Assembly (NCBI GenBank): GCA_002313335.1
Contig: DCBC01000089.1
Coordinates: 1-13,541, forward strand
DNA: 13,541 nucleotides
From: Porticoccaceae bacterium UBA1117
GTDB lineage: Bacteria > Pseudomonadota > Gammaproteobacteria > Pseudomonadales > Porticoccaceae
Direction of reading: 5' to 3'
In this document: piece after piece, positions 4,420 through 13,314 of the stretch
Layout of the letters: every line of letters begins with the position of its first letter
How positions within the stretch are numbered: position 1 is the stretch's first letter
The notes under the pieces: generated by a model
Told to the model about the DNA's origin: nothing
Seen by the model: only the letters and a program-made list of their open reading frames with translations
The model's database searches: none
Translations under genes and position numbers: made by a program

Positions 4420-5892
4420 ATGCTACGAATCTCTAACGAAGCACTCACCTTTGACGACGTCCTTCTCGTCCCAGGGTATTCTGACGTCACTGCAAAAGAT
4501 GTGACCACCCGCTCTCAGCTAACACGTGGCATTACCATGAATATCCCGCTGGTTTCAGCGGCTATGGATACCGTCACTGAATCGCGCTTAGCTATTGCTA
4601 TTGCGCAAGAAGGGGGTGTTGGTATTGTTCATAAGAGTATGACAATTGAGGATCAAGCCAGAGAAGTTTGGGCGGTCAAAAAGTATGAGAGTGGTGTGGT
4701 TAAAGATCCCTTCACTATCGAATCATCGGCCACGTTAGAGCAGTTACATGCGCTCACTATGGCGAATAATATTTCGGGTGTCCCCATTCTTGAGAACGGT
4801 AACCTAGTAGGGATCGTGACGCGCCGAGATGTGCGTTTTGCGACCGATATGAGCGCCTGTGTAACCTCAGTAATGACGCCTAAAGATCGATTAGTTACTG
4901 TAAAAGAAGGCGCTGGTGCTGATGAGGTAAGAGCACTACTTCATAAGCACAGAATAGAAAAAGTCATGGTGATTAATGATGCCTTTGAGTTGAAGGGCCT
5001 AATTACAGTTACCGACATTGATAAAGCTGAACAATATCCCCATGCCTGTAAAGATGATCAGGGTCGTTTAATTGTTGGCGCCTCAGTTAGTGTTGGTGAA
5101 GGGACCGATGAGCGTATAGAAGCCCTGATTCATGCCAATGTTGATGTTCTTGTAGTAGATACTGCCCATGGGCACTCGATGAATGTATTAAACCGAGTAA
5201 GGTGGATCAAAAAGCATTTCCCAGATGTGCAAGTGATTGGGGGCAACGTAGCGACTGGCGAGGGTGCTAGAGCACTAGTTGATGCTGGAGCAGACGGCGT
5301 TAAGGTTGGCATCGGGCCAGGGTCCATTTGTACAACACGCATTGTTACTGGAATTGGCGTACCTCAAGTCACCGCAATTGCTAATGCGGTAGAGGCCCTA
5401 AAAGGGACCGGCGTACCTGTTATTGCCGATGGTGGAATTCGTTACTCTGGCGACATGGCAAAAGCTATTGTTGCCGGTGCAAGTTCGGTGATGATGGGCT
5501 CCATGCTAGCCGGTACTGAGGAAGCACCAGGCGAAATTGAAATGTTCCAAGGTCGCTCTTATAAAAATTATCGAGGTATGGGTTCTTTAGGTGCTATGTC
5601 GCATTCTATGGGATCAAGTGACCGTTACTTCCAAGATGCTAGTGCTGTTGAAAAATTAGTACCAGAAGGTATTGAAGGCCGAGTGCCTTATAAGGGGCCA
5701 GTATCCAATATTATTCATCAAATGATGGGTGGTTTGCGTTCTGCCATGGGATACACCGGTTGTACAACGATCGAGCAAATGCGCACTAAACCCGAATTTG
5801 TGCGAGTGACCTCTGCGGGCATGGGCGAGAGTCATGTGCACGATGTTCAGATTACCAAAGAAGCACCTAACTACCCAGCAGGCGGACGATAA
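4420..5892 (+). CDS. guaB: Inosine-5'-monophosphate dehydrogenase
   Basis: A 490-residue IMP dehydrogenase, which oxidises IMP to XMP with NAD+, the first committed step of GMP synthesis. The start at 4420 gives [18 protein letters not shown], matching the family N terminus. The TIM-barrel catalytic domain is interrupted by a pair of CBS domains at about residues 95-205. The active-site loop GPGSICTTR puts the catalytic cysteine at C304. The IMP phosphate site includes [11 protein letters not shown] (335-345), the flap begins after [10 protein letters not shown] (384-393), and the Arg-Tyr pair of the flap is R402-Y403. No key residue is missing. It is followed 82 bases later by guaA, the standard guaBA operon, and divergent from xseA. 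Confidence 0.98.
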
Positions 5893-5974: not shown

Positions 5975-7552
5975 ATGATAGATCTACATTCGCAAAAAAT
6001 TCTTATTCTTGATTTTGGTTCTCAATATACCCAGTTAATTGCCCGTCGTGTGCGTGAGATTGGTGTGTTCTCTGAAATCAGAGCCTGGGATATTACAGAA
6101 GAAGAAATACGCGAATTTAATCCCCAAGGATTCATTCTATCCGGTGGTCCTGAGTCGGTTACTGGAGGGGCTAGCGCACCTAGAGCACCAGACTGCGTGT
6201 TTACAATGGGATTGCCGGTGCTTGGCATTTGCTATGGCATGCAGACAATGGCCGGCCAGTTAGGTGGAGAGGTTGCTACCTCTGATGTTCGAGAGTTCGG
6301 CTATGCCCAAGTGAAAGTGGAGGGTGTGTCTGCTTTACTGGGTGATCTTAATGACCATGCCAATACTGGTGGGGCTGCATTGTTAGATGTATGGATGAGC
6401 CATGGAGACAAAGTTGTGGCTATGCCTGAAGGCTTCAGTTTAATGGCCTCTACAGAGTCATGTCCGATTGCTGGGATGGTTAACGAAGAAAAGAAATTTT
6501 ATGGTATTCAATTCCATCCTGAAGTGACCCACACCCTGCAAGGCGAAAACATCTTCCAGCACTTTGCTCTAGAAATTTGCGGTTGCGAGCCACTCTGGAC
6601 TGCTGCCGCCATTATTGAAGATCAAATTACTCGAGTTCAACAGCAGGTGGGTGACAGTCATGTCCTACTGGGTCTCTCAGGCGGCGTTGATTCCTCTGTA
6701 GTTGCCGCGCTGCTGCATAAGGCTATTGGTGATCAGTTAACGTGCGTCTTTGTTGATAACGGCCTGTTACGTAAAAATGAAGGCGACGCAGTGATGGAGA
6801 TGTTCGCCAAGAATATGGGTGTAAAGGTAATTCGTGCCAATGCCCAAGACAAGTTTTTAAATGGTTTAGTGGGTGTTAGTGATCCAGAGGCTAAGCGTAA
6901 AGTTATTGGTAATACATTCATCGAAATTTTTGATGAAGAGTCCAATAAAATTGATAACGTCAACTTTTTAGCTCAAGGCACTATTTACCCTGATGTTATT
7001 GAGTCAGCGGCCTCCAAAACGGGTAAGGCGCACGTCATTAAATCTCACCACAATGTGGGTGGCTTGCCAGATGATATGGCCCTTGATCTGGTTGAGCCAC
7101 TACGCGAATTGTTTAAAGATGAAGTACGTAAAATTGGTGTTGAGCTTGGGCTGCCCTACGATATGGTCTATCGTCATCCATTCCCTGGCCCTGGTTTGGG
7201 CGTCCGTATCCTGGGAGAAGTTAAAAAGGAATATGCTGATATCCTTAGAGAAGCCGATGCCATCTTTATTGAAGAGCTGCATAACTCCGGCTGGTATCAA
7301 AAAACCAGTCAAGCCTTTGCCGTATTCCTACCGATTAAATCTGTCGGTGTAGTTGGTGATGCGCGGCGCTATGAGTGGGTCATTGCATTACGTGCAGTAG
7401 AAACTATTGATTTTATGACGGCTAGATGGGCGCATCTGCCTTATGAGCTCTTGGAAAAAGTTTCTAACCGCATTATCAACGAAATTACCGAAGTCTCTCG
7501 CGTAACCTATGATGTTTCTAGTAAACCGCCGGCAACTATTGAGTGGGAGTAG
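5975..7552 (+). CDS. guaA: GMP synthase (glutamine-hydrolysing)
   Basis: A 525-residue GMP synthase, the same length as the E. coli enzyme. It converts XMP to GMP using ATP and ammonia from glutamine. The N-terminal class I glutamine amidotransferase domain (about 1-205) has its triad as C86 (GICYGMQ) and H181/E183 (FHPEV). The ATP-pyrophosphatase domain begins near 210 with the P-loop SGGVDSS at 235-241. The C-terminal dimerisation domain ends in PPATIEWE, the typical family ending. The ribosome-binding site AAGGG lies six bases before the ATG. It is second in the guaBA operon. Everything after its stop codon is accessory, and the 3' end of guaA is a known insertion point for genomic islands in other bacteria. 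Confidence 0.98.
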
Positions 7553-7647: not shown

Positions 7648-9084
7648 ATGGTTGAAACTAAAGTAATTGCTGTCGATTTGGATGGCACTCTTACGCTTAC
7701 TGATACGCTACACGAAGCGGTTTTGGTACTAGCTCGAAGCAAGCCGTTCATGCTATTTATGCTGCCATTTTGGCTGGCTAAAGGTGTTGCGTATCTTAAA
7801 TTAAAAGTTGCTGAAAACTCTGTGTTAGATGTGACTACATTGCCTTACAACGTGCCTTTCATTGATTGGTTAAAAGAACAAAAGGCGAGCGGAAAAACAC
7901 TTGTGCTTTGTACTGCAGCAAACAAGCTAATTGCACGTAATGTATGTAGACACTTCGATCTCTTCGATGACTTCATTGCTAGCGACGAATATACAAATTT
8001 AAAAAGCGCTAATAAGCGCAAGGCGTTAGAGGGTAAGTATGGCGAGCATGGCTACGATTATGCTGGAAACAGTAGTGCAGATTTAGAAGTTTGGGCTGGT
8101 GCAGCACAAGCAATCGTTGTCAATGCAAGTGCAACGGTGCTTGCGAAAGCAACAAAAGTCGCAACAGTATCAGAAACTTTCCCTTCAGCGAATCCCAGTT
8201 TATCAGTTTGGCTTAAAGCATTAAGAGTGCATCAATGGCTGAAAAATTTATTGTTATTTGTACCTCTTTTGGCAGCGCATCAATTTGGTAACTTTCAATC
8301 TCTTGCCACCCTCACTCTCGCTCTCATTTCATTTAGTTTGTGCGCATCATCAGTTTATGTAGTCAACGATTTACTTGATTTAGAAAGTGATCGGCGGCAT
8401 CCACGTAAGAAGAATAGGCCTTTTGCATCGGCAAAACTACCAATTTCGTTAGGTGTAGCAGTTGCACCTTTATTAATTGGATCGAGTGTTATGTTAGGCG
8501 CAATTGTCGGTGCAGACTTCTTAGTGATCTTGCTACTTTATCTTTTGCTGACAACTGCTTATTCATTGGCACTCAAGCGTGTGGTGCTAGTGGACTGTTT
8601 GACGCTCGCAACGCTCTACACTCTTCGCATCATCGCTGGTGCGGCAGCAGTATCGGTTAGACTCTCTTTTTGGCTGCTTGCGTTTTCGATATTTATATTT
8701 TTATCGTTAGCGCTTGTGAAGCGTTATGCAGAGCTCAAAGTTCAGATACAAGAAGGCAACAGTTCCGCACATGGACGTGGCTACATAGTTTCTGATGCGC
8801 CGCTTTTGCAGACATTAGGAGTATCTTCTGGCTACATCTCTGCTTTGGTTATGGCTCTATACGTTCAAAGTGAAGACATTGTTTCGTTATATGCTCAACC
8901 CTTAGCAATCTGGTTAGTACTTCCTATCCTTTTATTTTGGGTGAGTTGGGTTTGGCTGAAAGCAGAAAGAGGTGAGATGCATGACGACCCTATTGTATTT
9001 GCAGCTAAAGATAAAGCAAGTCTTGTAGTGGCAGCACTTACAGCAGTTGTCTTTGTATACGCGGCTATTGGGATGACGTTTTAA
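7648..9084 (+). CDS. HAD phosphatase - UbiA prenyltransferase fusion, probable polyprenyl-phosphate phosphoribosyltransferase
   Basis: A 478-residue two-domain protein. The ATG at 7648 puts DLDGTL right at the N terminus; a TTG two codons earlier is rejected. Residues 1-180 are a HAD-type phosphatase: nucleophile D10 and D12 in DLDGTL, motif II T89 (VLCTA), a lysine-rich motif III near 119-125, and motif IV GNSSAD (140-145), where Asn141 replaces the usual Asp. Residues 185-478 are a UbiA-family membrane domain with about eight to nine spans. They carry the first Asp-rich motif NDLLDLESD (240-248) followed by RR..P...NRPFA, and a second site YSLALK...D (305-316), as in Rv3806c, which moves 5-phosphoribose from PRPP to decaprenyl phosphate. 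I infer that the UbiA half makes polyprenyl-phosphoryl-5-phosphoribose and the HAD half removes the 5-phosphate, a step done by a separate PAP2 protein in mycobacteria. It is first of five overlapping genes. Confidence 0.88.
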   Translation: MVETKVIAVDLDGTLTLTDTLHEAVLVLARSKPFMLFMLPFWLAKGVAYLKLKVAENSVLDVTTLPYNVPFIDWLKEQKASGKTLVLCTAANKLIARNVCRHFDLFDDFIASDEYTNLKSANKRKALEGKYGEHGYDYAGNSSADLEVWAGAAQAIVVNASATVLAKATKVATVSETFPSANPSLSVWLKALRVHQWLKNLLLFVPLLAAHQFGNFQSLATLTLALISFSLCASSVYVVNDLLDLESDRRHPRKKNRPFASAKLPISLGVAVAPLLIGSSVMLGAIVGADFLVILLLYLLLTTAYSLALKRVVLVDCLTLATLYTLRIIAGAAAVSVRLSFWLLAFSIFIFLSLALVKRYAELKVQIQEGNSSAHGRGYIVSDAPLLQTLGVSSGYISALVMALYVQSEDIVSLYAQPLAIWLVLPILLFWVSWVWLKAERGEMHDDPIVFAAKDKASLVVAALTAVVFVYAAIGMTF

Positions 9085-9512
9085 TGGCGCTGACAGCGGT
9101 AAAAATTGCAGTGCTTTACATGCTATTTGCTGTATTTTCCATTGTCATCAATATTGGTTCTCAAATGTTATCGATTGGGGTTTACAAAGGTCCTTACTCC
9201 GTTGAAGTTTCTATCTTAGTTGGAACTGCTGCGGGGCTACCACTGCGTTATGTCCTAGAAAAACGTTATATATTTAATTTTACAAGCTACAATCTCGCAC
9301 ATGATGGACGGTTGTTCGTTTTTTATAGCGCTATGGGTGTAATAACAACGTTAATTTTCTGGGGCACCGAATACGCTTTCCACATAATTTACGATACAGA
9401 TTTTATGCGTTACGTTGGCGGCTTTATTGGGCTCTCAGCTGGCTTCTACGTTAAATACCAATTAGACAAAAAATATGTGTTTGTGAGCCGAATTAGTGAG
9501 GGTCAGCAATGA
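9084..9512 (+). CDS. GtrA-family small membrane protein
   Basis: A 142-residue protein with four predicted membrane spans (about 5-28, 38-57, 75-97 and 108-127) and the GtrA-like pattern of a conserved basic LEKRYIF segment after span two and LDKKYVF near the end. GtrA-family proteins are linked to moving polyprenyl-linked sugars across the inner membrane. In mycobacteria a GtrA-like protein (Rv3789) sits beside dprE1 and dprE2, where both a flippase role and a scaffold role have been proposed. Start and stop overlap the neighbours: the ATG shares one base with the TAA of the upstream gene, and its TGA overlaps the next ATG by four bases. I infer translocation of the arabinose lipid to the periplasmic side. 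Family assignment is good; the function is uncertain. Confidence 0.82.
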   Translation: MALTAVKIAVLYMLFAVFSIVINIGSQMLSIGVYKGPYSVEVSILVGTAAGLPLRYVLEKRYIFNFTSYNLAHDGRLFVFYSAMGVITTLIFWGTEYAFHIIYDTDFMRYVGGFIGLSAGFYVKYQLDKKYVFVSRISEGQQ

Positions 9513-10819
9513 CAATGACAACAACAATTAGCGGTTGGGGAAATTATCCTCGACAAGAATCTCAATGCACGAAGCCGTCTACAGCCGCATTACTTCGCAC
9601 AGCAGTTAATCAAGAAGGAAGCCTCCTAGCTCGTGGAATGGGTCGTAGTTATGGTGATAGTGCTAATGCCCATAAGGTGCTAGCAACATCCTATTGCAAT
9701 CACTTTATTGATTTTGACGAGCGCACTGGAAAACTTACAGCTGAGTCGGGCATTACATTAAGAGAGATACTGACTGTGATTGTACCTAAGGGATGGTTTT
9801 TACCAGTAACGCCTGGCACTAGCTATGTAACTTTGGGCGGTGCAATAGCAAGCGATGTGCATGGTAAAAATCATCATATTGCTGGCACGTTTGGACAGCA
9901 TGTTACATCTTTAAACCTAGTGCTAGGCACTGGAGAACTCTTAACTTCATCGAAGCATGAAAATGCTGATCTGTTTCATGCTACATGTGGAGGGATGGGG
10001 TTAACTGGCATAATTATCAGTGCAACCATTCAGCTAATTCCTATTCAATCTTCATTTATCAACCAAAAGACAATTAAAGCTGGTTGTATAGAGTCAGCAT
10101 GTGAATTGTTTGAAGAAAATAATGACGCTACCTATAGCGTTGCATGGATTGATTGTCTGGCAAAAGGGAAGAACCTTGGGCGTAGCGTTCTAATGCTTGG
10201 CGAACATGCAGAGGAAGGTGGATTAGAAATTGATTTAAAAGAGCCGGTCGCTGTCCCTTTTAATACTCCAGCTGCATTGCTTAATAGCATGACGATGAAA
10301 ACATTTAATACTATCTATTGGCATAAGGCAAAGGCTAAGCCACACCACGCTGTGCCGCTAATGCCCTACTTCTACCCCTTAGATGCAATCGGTAATTGGA
10401 ACAGAATGTACGGTAAAAAGGGTTTTTTACAATTCCAATGCGTAATACCGAAAAGTGATGGTGTAGCGAACATGCGCAAGCTCCTAACGGAGGTAGCAAA
10501 CAGTGGAGAAGGTTCGTGCCTTGCAGTACTCAAACAGTTCGGCAAAGCCAACGACAGCCTTCTATCCTTTCCAACTGAAGGCTACACATTAGCTTTAGAC
10601 TTTAAGTTAAATGAATCAACCATGCAGACAGTAAGTAGACTCGAAGCGATGACACTAGATATGGGTGGACGGCTGTACTTAACAAAGGATGCTGTAATGC
10701 AAGAAAGCACGTTTAAAGCTACATATCCAAATTGGGAAAAATTTGAGGCAGTACGCGAACAATATGGTGCAATTGGCAAGTTTAGTTCGATGCAGTCAAA
10801 ACGCTTAGGGTTAGCATGA
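9509..10819 (+). CDS. dprE1: DprE1-like FAD-dependent polyprenylphosphoryl-ribose 2'-oxidase
   Basis: A 436-residue FAD-binding oxidoreductase of the VAO/PCMH fold, clearly close to mycobacterial DprE1, which oxidises the 2'-hydroxyl of decaprenylphosphoryl-ribose to a keto sugar. Shared blocks include ARGMGRSYGD (41-50), PGTSYVTLGGAIASD (102-116), HGKNHH (118-123), GGMGLTGII (161-169) and LQFQCVIP (307-314). The active-site lysine equivalent is K393 in YLTKDA. At the position of Cys387, the residue attacked by benzothiazinone inhibitors in M. tuberculosis, this protein has Ala362 (GYTLALDF). The ATG at 9509 has GAGGG six bases upstream and overlaps the previous stop as ATGA; an ATG two codons later is possible. 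The gene is followed directly by its partner reductase. Confidence 0.92.
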   Translation: MTMTTTISGWGNYPRQESQCTKPSTAALLRTAVNQEGSLLARGMGRSYGDSANAHKVLATSYCNHFIDFDERTGKLTAESGITLREILTVIVPKGWFLPVTPGTSYVTLGGAIASDVHGKNHHIAGTFGQHVTSLNLVLGTGELLTSSKHENADLFHATCGGMGLTGIIISATIQLIPIQSSFINQKTIKAGCIESACELFEENNDATYSVAWIDCLAKGKNLGRSVLMLGEHAEEGGLEIDLKEPVAVPFNTPAALLNSMTMKTFNTIYWHKAKAKPHHAVPLMPYFYPLDAIGNWNRMYGKKGFLQFQCVIPKSDGVANMRKLLTEVANSGEGSCLAVLKQFGKANDSLLSFPTEGYTLALDFKLNESTMQTVSRLEAMTLDMGGRLYLTKDAVMQESTFKATYPNWEKFEAVREQYGAIGKFSSMQSKRLGLA

Positions 10820-11553
10820 AGAAAGTATTGATCATTGGAGCAACATCAGCAATTGCTGAACACTGTGCGCGGATATGGGCTGCTAAGGGTGATGTTATGC
10901 ACTTGGTTGCCAGAAATGAGCAGCACGTTCAAACAATAGCATCAGATCTTAAGGTACGTGGTGCTTCTGAGGTAACGACATATTACTTGGATCTCAATAA
11001 TGTGGGTAGGCATGAAGAGTTACTTAACGTCGCTGATGATGCGCTAGGTAGCGTAGACATCGTTTTAATTGCGCACGGTACACTCTCAAATCAAATAAAG
11101 TGTGAGGGTAGTGTTGAGGAAACTTTGGCTGAGATTCAAACTAATGCGCTTTCCACTATCAGCATATTAACTCTAATTGCGAACAGATTTGAGGCTAGAA
11201 AAAGCGGAGCTATCTGCGTGATTTCCTCTGTTGCTGGCGATAGAGGAAGATCTACCAACTATGTTTATGGATCGGCTAAAGCGATGGTAACTACTTTCAC
11301 ATCTGGGATGCGCCAGCGGTTATATAAGTCAAACGTGTCAGTTGTAACCATTAAGCCAGGATTTGTGGATACACCTATGACTAGTGAGTTTACAAAAGGG
11401 CTTTTGTGGGCTGAACCCAGTGCAGTAGCAGAGAAGATTGTGAAAGCAATTGATGAGAAGAAATCAGAAATTTATGTGCCATCATTTTGGTGGATGATTA
11501 TGGTTATCTTAAAAAAACTGCCCAATTTCATATTTAAAAGGCTTGATTTGTAA
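10816..11553 (+). CDS. dprE2: DprE2-like short-chain reductase
   Basis: A 245-residue short-chain dehydrogenase/reductase. The Rossmann nucleotide loop is GATSAIAE (8-15), a variant of TGxxxGxG also seen in DprE2. The structural NAG motif appears as AHG at 86-88. The catalytic set is N110, S138 (within VISSVAG), Y151 and K155 (YGSAK), and PGFVDTP (181-187) follows. The C-terminal 25 residues are hydrophobic and basic (near WWMIMVILKKLPNFIFKRL), suggesting membrane association. In mycobacteria DprE2 reduces the keto intermediate made by DprE1 with NADH, giving polyprenyl-phosphoryl-D-arabinofuranose. The SDR family alone would not fix a function; the assignment rests on the ATGA overlap with the dprE1 homologue and the pathway context. 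Confidence 0.88.
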   Translation: MKKVLIIGATSAIAEHCARIWAAKGDVMHLVARNEQHVQTIASDLKVRGASEVTTYYLDLNNVGRHEELLNVADDALGSVDIVLIAHGTLSNQIKCEGSVEETLAEIQTNALSTISILTLIANRFEARKSGAICVISSVAGDRGRSTNYVYGSAKAMVTTFTSGMRQRLYKSNVSVVTIKPGFVDTPMTSEFTKGLLWAEPSAVAEKIVKAIDEKKSEIYVPSFWWMIMVILKKLPNFIFKRLDL

Positions 11554-12689
11554 TGTTTGAATTTGATGCAAAAAGGTCTCAAATAATCTTTACAGTTGCT
11601 TGGATTGCTATTTTTTCAAGTATCTTAATCTTTGGATGGAGTACTACATGGGCTGCACTTGTTGTTCCTACGGTTTTTCCAGAGTTTGCAGACATGAGAA
11701 CGGTGCAAGGTGCTTTGTACTCTTTAAACGAAGGTTTTGATCCACAGATAAATAATGTTGGTGATCCTTGGGGTCGTAGCATGAATTACCCGTCAATCTG
11801 GATTTCAATTTCTGAAATATTTAATTTAAAAATTGAACTACACTTCAAAATCTTTGTATCGTTGATGGTCCTTCTGTTCCTTGGCTGTTGTTTTCTAATG
11901 CTAAAGCAGTATCCGTCACTGACACTTTTACTACTATGCTTTTCTGGAGCAACATTGCTTGCTGTTGAACGAGGAAATAACGATATTTTAATTTTCTCTT
12001 TGTTATATTTTTCAGTTTTTTTAGGTGGTGGTTTCTATGTTCTAGCTTTGTTAATGGCGACACTGTTGAAGATATTTCCAATTCTTGCATTTCCAGCCTT
12101 TTGTCGTTCTTTCAAGACATTTTTCTTGATGTTCGCTGTGGCAGCAATTGCTTTGATCCTGCTATTTCCAGAGTTTTCAAACATTAGAAATGGTACGCCA
12201 GTTAGTGCTCTGTTGAGTTACGGTTCTCCAAGTATATCGGCTGCATTTCAAAAAAAACTAAATTTTAACTTTCCTGCTCATTACATCTCTATTCTTGTGC
12301 TATTCACGGCATTAGTAGCTTGGCGATTAGAATTTCTAAGTAAAAGACTAACTTTTTCTGAGATAGATAGCCGTGCAAAACAAATGTTTTTAATTGGTGC
12401 CTATGTTTATGTTGGTACTTTCATTCTTTCGAGTAATTGGGATTATCGGCTTATATTTCTTATTTTGTGCGTGCCATATGTTATGAATGCAAATGATCGT
12501 TATTTGCGAATTTTGATGTCTTTATCTTTGATAATTGCATTCAACCAACAGCCGTTACATTTTGTATTAGGACCAATTGGGGTTGGGATAAATATCTTAT
12601 CTAAGATTCTTTTGGCAGTATTTTGTACTCTAGTTATTTTGATTGACTTGCGAACAAGGGTATTCATGATTTTTAAGTGGAATGTTTGA
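11553..12689 (+). CDS. Multi-spanning GT-C type membrane protein (GT87-like), candidate arabinofuranosyltransferase
   Basis: A 378-residue integral membrane protein with about ten to eleven hydrophobic spans. It resembles GT-C lipid-sugar glycosyltransferases of the GT87/DUF2029 type. After the first span a loop of about 55 residues carries Asp47 (FADMRT), where GT-C enzymes often have their catalytic aspartate, plus a DPWGRSMNYPSIW segment (71-83). Other landmarks are ERGNNDIL (139-146) and NWDYRLIF (295-302) on a later loop. It overlaps the reductase stop by one base (TAATG) and ends the operon. I infer that it uses the lipid-linked D-arabinofuranose and transfers it to a periplasmic acceptor such as a pilin or envelope glycan, but no acceptor gene is in the window. 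It is more AT-rich than its operon partners. Membrane nature is sure, glycosyltransferase likely, sugar and acceptor inferred. Confidence 0.7.
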   Translation: MFEFDAKRSQIIFTVAWIAIFSSILIFGWSTTWAALVVPTVFPEFADMRTVQGALYSLNEGFDPQINNVGDPWGRSMNYPSIWISISEIFNLKIELHFKIFVSLMVLLFLGCCFLMLKQYPSLTLLLLCFSGATLLAVERGNNDILIFSLLYFSVFLGGGFYVLALLMATLLKIFPILAFPAFCRSFKTFFLMFAVAAIALILLFPEFSNIRNGTPVSALLSYGSPSISAAFQKKLNFNFPAHYISILVLFTALVAWRLEFLSKRLTFSEIDSRAKQMFLIGAYVYVGTFILSSNWDYRLIFLILCVPYVMNANDRYLRILMSLSLIIAFNQQPLHFVLGPIGVGINILSKILLAVFCTLVILIDLRTRVFMIFKWNV

Positions 12690-12882: not shown

Positions 12883-13314
12883 ATGACTGTACTTAATACA
12901 CTTAGCTTCGTTGCATTTAATCCACTCGCTAACAACAACCCAATCGCTGTGCGTCGTCGTAAGTTGATGGCAAAGATAGATGAACAAATCCAACTAGCAA
13001 CAAACAAAGACTACACGCCCACGCAGCATAAATGGGTTACTGATGACGAAGGCAAACAAACCAAAGTTGAAGTTGCCAAGCCTGTTAAGCGTTGGTGGAC
13101 TGCTAGCGTTGATGGCAAGATTAACCTAGTAGTACGCTATGGCAGCAAGCCTTTAGAGTTTGCGAAAGGTAAGAATGCCATTGAACTAGCGAGTGAGGCT
13201 GATGTTGCTGATGTGCTAGTTAAGGTGCGTGAAGCTGTTGAACTTGGTGAGTTAGATGCGCTAATTGAACAGCAAGCACAGTTTGGTAGACGTTTGTCAC
13301 TGAAGAACAAGTGA
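12883..13314 (+). CDS. Uncharacterised 143-residue protein
   Basis: Coding is well supported by a strong AGGAGG at ideal spacing and a clear stop at 13312-13314. The protein is soluble, with no signal peptide or membrane span. It has a basic segment (VRRRKLMAKIDEQIQLA, about 23-39), a charged middle, then a conserved-looking RWW...SVDGKINLVVRYGSKPLEF stretch (about 69-93) that reads like a small beta-sheet. A helical, acidic tail (about 96-135) ends in lysines. It resembles small proteins found in accessory DNA of proteobacteria that I associate with the domain of unknown function DUF6641, but I cannot verify this and no function is known to me. It is not overlapped with the sugar operon, and codon use and spacing suggest a separate transcription unit. 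Confidence 0.8.
   Translation: MTVLNTLSFVAFNPLANNNPIAVRRRKLMAKIDEQIQLATNKDYTPTQHKWVTDDEGKQTKVEVAKPVKRWWTASVDGKINLVVRYGSKPLEFAKGKNAIELASEADVADVLVKVREAVELGELDALIEQQAQFGRRLSLKNK

Follow-up and report, generated by a model that had tools for sequence, protein, structure and literature searches.

The present study analyzes a five-gene operon that follows guaA in a 13,541-base stretch of DNA from Porticoccaceae bacterium UBA1117; this stretch, referred to below as the window, is the whole of contig DCBC01000089.1 (G000:C36 in our numbering) of a 1.92 Mb assembly that is 74% complete. We consider it likely that the operon encodes a self-contained, probably horizontally acquired system that adds D-arabinofuranose (D-Araf), a sugar best known from the mycobacterial cell wall, to an extracytoplasmic acceptor. 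In such a system a DprE1-like oxidase and a DprE2-like reductase would invert C2 to give polyprenyl-phosphate-D-Araf, a GtrA protein would carry this donor to the periplasmic side, and a GT-C protein would transfer the sugar, the likeliest acceptor being a polysaccharide or glycolipid of the surface. An Araf donor is proposed because the nearest solved relatives by sequence are decaprenyl-phosphate phosphoribosyltransferase (DPPRS), DprE1 and DprE2. It is from the gene content, gene order, motifs and nearest relatives, together with a predicted fold for the last protein, that we infer each activity, Araf as the sugar, flipping and the acceptor. All five open reading frames (ORFs) lie on the forward strand, with successive overlaps of 1, 4, 4 and 1 bases (Table 1), and the coordinates that a first-pass annotation had given for five overlapping same-strand genes are correct by the ORF list and these overlaps. 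The first ORF begins after a gap of 89 bases from the end of guaA, and GC content is 35–43% in the operon ORFs against 46–48% in guaA and guaB.

The first gene (ORF1) encodes the UbiA-type transferase and the HAD phosphatase that had been annotated earlier; both are indeed present, but as a single fused protein. Pfam places PF12710 (HAD) at residues 11–148 and PF01040 (UbiA) at 209–440, the NCBIfam model PRK08238 is matched at 644 bits (cut-off 351), and residues 180–372 match the DPPRS of PDB 8j8j at E 2.4e-29. Those parts of Kelly et al. 2024 (PMC11127046) that are drawn on here give 8j8j as mycobacterial and describe in section 7 a Citrobacter youngae protein, ORF15, with the same domain order, HAD being N-terminal, which makes farnesyl-phosphate-ribofuranose (Ribf) from phosphoribosyl pyrophosphate. 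Mutagenesis in that section addressed the HAD nucleophile Asp, the N/D of NDxxDxxxD, and the R and E of loop IV, the loop IV variants having stayed active, and the residues mutated have counterpart motifs in the window protein, namely DLDGT at 12, NDLLDLESD at 242 and KRYAEL at 360 (numbered from the TTG start). By its domains, nearest structure and motifs ORF1 would thus combine the polyprenyl-phosphate phosphoribosyltransferase (PPPRS) bearing NDxxDxxxD with the phosphoribosyl phosphatase domain of the HAD type that characterize the published three-component systems.

The second protein (ORF2) is a candidate flippase of the GtrA family, which it matches above cut-off both in NCBIfam (gtrA_1, 164 bits, cut-off 50) and, narrowly, in Pfam (PF04138, 26.5 bits, cut-off 26.1), while a MATE flippase like that of the prototype systems was not matched among the six window proteins scanned with Pfam. 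Transporters of SMR and Gtr type are discussed for related systems in the text used of PMC11127046, and the GtrA-family protein Rv3789 is, according to the portion of PMC7389260 cited here, a proposed and contested flippase of the mycobacterial Araf donor. Two loci from relatives in the same taxonomic order as the window genome (L158, 4075–5037; L159, 6657–7646) have no GtrA match and carry, directly before HAD-UbiA-DprE1-DprE2, a membrane protein of 320–329 residues with 7–8 hydrophobic segments that may be another type of flippase.

The oxidase (ORF3) scores 386 bits with the DprE1 model NF053785 while the next best model reaches 63 bits, and its nearest solved structure is DprE1 (PDB 4aut, E 1.2e-78). 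The best model for the reductase (ORF4) is the generic short-chain dehydrogenase/reductase (SDR) family PRK07102, passed at 327 bits (cut-off 267), followed by the DprE2 model NF053786 at 173 bits; its nearest solved structure is DprE2 (21gq_C, E 1.5e-23, next protein 3.2e-13), and it carries VYGSAK at 150. Both of these structures we take to be mycobacterial. The homologues expected of the Araf variant of the three-component systems are therefore in the window, as homologues and not as equivalogs by cut-off. Family matches and nearest structures support the earlier assignment of four enzyme activities and a GtrA protein to a donor pathway. The narrower placement of the oxidase and reductase among DprE1 and DprE2, judged by model and structure scores, is borne out by the nearest structures and falls short at the equivalog cut-offs considered below. 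At the place of cysteine 387 of mycobacterial DprE1 the window oxidase has Ala362, and an alanine at this position is natural in M. avium according to the part of PMC3206020 used here.

The last protein (ORF5) matched neither a Pfam nor an NCBIfam model at E up to 0.1, and a profile of its family (54 sequences) matched no PDB chain at E up to 10. Its predicted structure nonetheless supports the GT-C nature given in the first-pass annotation, with PimE as the top structural match by a clear margin and GT-C enzymes or relatives such as ALG6, ArnT, PglB, EmbC/EmbB and AftD among the further matches, so that by the model a GT-C-fold transferase, the third component, would be present as well. PimE is a member of GT87. 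No GT87 domain (PF09594) was found in ORF5; a precomputed label for it stands on 4 among the 120 relatives listed, and in a scan of eight relatives two matched at 27–28 bits (cut-off 25), both of them picked for that label. An invariant aspartate, D47, is predicted to lie at the start of a helix (46–59) in the stretch after the first transmembrane segment (TM1), and in the model it appears comparable to the catalytic D58 that PMC12041525, in the part cited, places at the tip of JM1 in PimE. A literature search by title and the start of the abstract, with most subscription journals outside it, gave nothing on the ORF5 family or on such an operon behind guaA.

Table 1. Features of the operon and its surroundings (window positions)
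Feature	Coordinates	Strand	Basis or remark
HAD phosphatase + UbiA-type polyprenyl-phosphate phosphoribosyltransferase fusion (ORF1)	7642 (TTG) or 7648 (ATG), equally likely starts, to 9084	+	PRK08238, PDB 8j8j, motifs
GtrA-family small membrane protein, candidate flippase of lipid-linked sugar (ORF2)	9084..9512	+	gtrA_1, PF04138
DprE1-like FAD oxidase, putative polyprenylphosphoryl-ribose 2'-oxidation (ORF3)	9509..10819	+	NF053785, PDB 4aut
DprE2-like SDR reductase (ORF4)	10816..11553	+	PRK07102, NF053786, PDB 21gq_C
GT-C-fold membrane glycosyltransferase (predicted), unclassified GT87/PimE-like family (ORF5)	11553..12689	+	predicted fold
GAGTGGGA	7541..7548	+	guaA 3' end, core of published GIsul2 integration site
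guaA	5975..7552	+	left neighbour of operon
guaB	4420-5892		left of guaA
DUF6641 ORF	12883-13314		193 bases after operon end, then contig end

The type of system is known, having been described in 2024, and the biochemical reading is probably right; the set had earlier been described as self-contained, and the combination of donor enzymes, flippase and GT-C, including DprE1/E2 for Araf, is already published. In the parts considered here, Kelly et al. (PMC11127046) describe three-component pentofuranose systems of C. youngae O1/O2, report that systems behind glycans containing Araf include homologues of DprE1/E2, and list additional candidate systems of unknown glycan together with one encoded by a phage. 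As in C. youngae O1/O2, the window has HAD fused N-terminally to a UbiA-type PPPRS with the same motifs, a flippase gene and a GT-C gene. It differs in that the flippase is of the GtrA family rather than MATE, the GT-C is PimE-like by prediction and lacks an added C-terminal domain whereas a carbohydrate-binding domain is part of C. youngae ORF12, and an oxidase/reductase pair stands in place of the single SDR epimerase of O2. Again unlike C. youngae, O-antigen genes were not recognised in the 7.6 kb left of the operon, as judged from the ORF list, with two left-hand ORFs scanned against Pfam and the others named from recall. The left-hand genes are those we take to be guaA, guaB, xseA and der. 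With the mycobacterial decaprenyl-phosphoryl-arabinose pathway (compared through Rv3806c, Rv3807c, DprE1/E2, Rv3789 and Emb/Aft) the operon shares homologues of DPPRS, DprE1 and DprE2 and a GtrA-family protein, presumably catalyzing the same reactions. In contrast to it, the window phosphatase is an HAD domain joined to the transferase in one protein, its mycobacterial counterpart Rv3807c being unrelated (section 7 of PMC11127046), there is one GT-C, whose profile finds no PDB sequence, and the scores lie under the DprE1/DprE2 cut-offs. PimE of mycobacteria is similar in the predicted fold as a whole and in roughly where the invariant Asp stands after TM1 (PMC12041525, in the part cited); that profile search found no match to PimE either, and donor and acceptor would differ. 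Pseudomonas paraeruginosa likewise has Gram-negative genes for D-Araf biosynthesis (PSPA7_6245-6251 of RGP80), there in a genomic island, as the portion of PMC12369383 used here reports.

Several observations weigh against D-Araf transfer to a surface acceptor as the function of the operon. Relatives of ORF5 were matched in 3 of 368 other genomes of a class sample (clearly in G066 and G057; in G278 over only 36 residues with an internal stop) and in none of 397 other genomes of a phylum sample, the two samples having some genomes in common. The stretches around the relatives in G066 and G057 (19.0 and 19.5 kb) have no match to DprE1, DprE2 or HAD-UbiA, and the ORF5 family is therefore not bound to arabinose. 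G057 has two tandem relatives (L157, 8334–9542 and 9539–10789) near what we take, from its sequence, to be a DPM-synthase-like GT2, and because the tandem pair lies near this gene the family also occurs with another donor. No acceptor gene was recognised in the window, and the assembly has neither a Wzy_C ligase nor a PF00114 pilin match, which at 74% completeness excludes nothing, so that neither of the usual acceptor routes is supported; the Wzy_C cut-off is exceeded in 5 of the 39 genomes sampled from the genus. Related systems make Ribf or xylofuranose (Xylf), as described in the sections drawn on of PMC11127046, and sequence cannot prove which sugar is used here. Lastly, the curated equivalog cut-offs are missed by both the oxidase (386 bits against 500) and the reductase (173 against 250), and other homologues miss them too, with 0 of 4 passing for DprE1 and 0 of 2 for DprE2. 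These homologues came from two Pseudomonas, Conexibacter and a Pelagibacteraceae genome, each trimmed to its tblastn range, and to our knowledge none is experimentally proven. Since they also fail, the cut-offs may be drawn tightly around the mycobacterial relatives.

Because of the empty Wzy_C and PF00114 searches and the PimE-like fold, a glycolipid or lipid A-core acceptor is a serious alternative to a polymer. A narrower version, which overlaps with the function we favor, has a membrane glycolipid or phospholipid anchor as the acceptor, the PimE-like GT-C extending a lipid-anchored sugar and not a polymer; we regard this version as somewhat doubtful, for although the fold invites it, a shared fold says nothing on acceptor class, O-antigen ligases outside PF04932 would escape the search, and lipid A-core is itself a possible acceptor without O antigen. 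It is improbable that this donor serves to O-arabinosylate a protein, for instance type IV pilin, with the GT-C as a protein arabinosyltransferase, even though D-Araf glycosylation of pilin from a genomic-island gene set is known in P. paraeruginosa and a reference title within PMC12369383, again cited in part, names TfpW as a GT-C family arabinosyltransferase; there TfpW belongs to the pilin locus, whereas here the GT-C is in the operon and a pilin was not recognised nearby. It is quite improbable that the operon makes some other pentofuranose donor, such as one with Ribf or another 2'-modified sugar, since the missed cut-offs and the existence of similarly built systems for Ribf and Xylf (sections 7 and 12 of PMC11127046, as far as used) are set against DprE1 being by far the nearest model for the oxidase, DprE1 and DprE2 being the nearest structures, the failure of other homologues at the same cut-offs, and a published Xylf system that relies on a single SDR epimerase, compared with GalE.

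Evidence for D-Araf donor synthesis as a recurring unit comes from the gene order at other DprE1 loci. At least 587 stretches encoding DprE1 were obtained, of which the best 80 were kept, and with three loci from the taxonomic order of the window genome these make 83 loci in which gene order was read by tblastn with the window proteins. The order HADUbiA-GtrA-DprE1-DprE2 occurs in 18 of the 83 (one of them, L073, with an additional membrane ORF between GtrA and DprE1), a further 9 have the same order with UbiA but no detected HAD, 21 have UbiA-DprE1-DprE2, and 35 differ. By a crude rule under which genes can be missed (at least 300 residues, at least 6 hydrophobic segments, start no more than 400 bases from the block), 10 of the 83 loci have a membrane protein after the donor block, including three among the 18 (L007, L017 and L071). 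None of these ten matches ORF5 (blastp, E up to 1), and a glycosyltransferase-type Pfam domain is above cut-off in one (PMT_2, L007), below it in another, and absent from eight. The fifth-gene protein of L017 (Sphingomonas montanisoli) is called DUF2029-containing by one source, DUF2029 being presumably the old name of GT87; a search with it gave itself and three homologues, and its model is poor (pLDDT 54.6). When the ORF5 family was compared as a profile with the single proteins that lie downstream at L017, L071 and L007, nothing matched. Thus the donor block is found repeatedly with differing last genes, and it is likely, though weakly tested, that the last genes of other loci are also GT-Cs. 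The four-gene donor order is accordingly not special to this window, and of the five-gene order singled out in the first-pass annotation it is the donor block that recurs, with no ORF5-like last gene among the ten. Two DprE1 loci, L018 and L023, are 48–49% identical to the window and come from records titled as Klebsiella pneumoniae metagenome-assembled genomes, a name that looks doubtful.

The operon was probably acquired horizontally, to judge from its distribution, GC content and sequence relatives. Of 39 genomes sampled from the genus, only the window's own scores above cut-off for the HAD-UbiA family, and the matches in the other 38 are weak and with few exceptions cover the UbiA part; near full-length DprE1 is matched in 0 of 22 congeners, where weak matches are partial, and in 3 of 13 genomes from other families of the order (G025, G033, G035). 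Several compared genomes are incomplete, and absence of HAD-UbiA or DprE1 is to be read as not strict. The DUF6641 ORF to the right likewise occurs in the own genome only, 1 of 39 in the genus, and is a possible sign of a mobile region. Among the 120 matches listed for each of DprE1 and ORF5, of which only 3 carry an organism name, the closest named ones are from Candidatus Pelagibacter for DprE1 (77%) and Planktomarina for ORF5 (74%), and closer unnamed relatives exist.

The 3' end of guaA is the integration site of GIsul2 in the part of PMC9376610 cited here, and its core, GAGTGGGA, occurs once in the window (0.27 expected by chance); neither an integrase next to guaA nor a second GAGTGGGA was found in the window up to the contig end. 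Sequence behind guaA could be compared in 20 congeners among the 39 genomes, five of which run for no more than 447 bases past the guaA stop, and in 3 of the 15 loci with at least 1 kb (L142, L143, L147) a phage-type integrase is the first ORF of at least 100 residues. When the first ORFs behind guaA (at most four from each locus) were compared, shared genes were seen in two pairs of loci, and the three integrases were distantly similar. Because the congener stretches behind guaA vary and sometimes bear an integrase, the operon occupies a site whose content changes often. Viral contigs scanned with DprE1, a GT-C alignment and HAD-UbiA held no copies, and plasmids scanned with the GT-C gave no match; DprE1 matched 75 of 72,556 plasmid records, all below 60% identity, and 18 of the 20 listed are from Rhizobium, Cereibacter, Salipiger or Ruegeria. 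A phage or plasmid carrier, considered as a candidate, was thus not found in these scans. The operon had been called portable and said to sit alone: it is accessory, not being found in the congeners sampled and standing at a variable site, but no mobile carrier was found for it, and on the right its isolation can be judged over only 852 bases before the contig ends.

A more far-reaching proposal, possible but less likely than not, is that ORF5 founds an undescribed family of D-arabinofuranosyltransferases and that the operon is a cassette travelling among unrelated surface-ocean bacteria at variable sites such as the guaA 3' end, where a standard donor block with an exchangeable GT-C would alter a surface glycan or glycolipid in the manner of serotype-converting Gtr cassettes. 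The interest of the window lies in the unclassified GT-C and in these signs of cassette movement. If one donor block recurs with different last genes, this would go some way towards explaining how many Gram-negative bacteria could decorate their surface with D-Araf, and the operon offers defined genes for asking whether surface D-Araf alters recognition by phages or grazers. ORF5, matching no Pfam or NCBIfam family, deserves biochemical attention.

Some minor features of the window and of guaA loci were also recorded. Promoter-like sites (7 against 14.4 in shuffles) and terminator-like sites (3 against 5.5) were fewer than in shuffled sequence and were not used, nor was a 22-base imperfect direct repeat (D6, 77%) that overlaps part of the guaA end, short two-copy repeats often being due to chance. 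At one congener locus (L142, G036:C1:890600-910500) the integrase comes first and two partial copies of the guaA 3' end lie about 16 kb downstream of guaA, so that this stretch looks like an element integrated at guaA. In two congeners (G017:C3 and G018:C1; L124, L125, L149), guaA is present as two adjacent pieces, residues 1–445 and 442–525, which reflects either a shift of reading frame close to the 3' end or a fault in the assembly.

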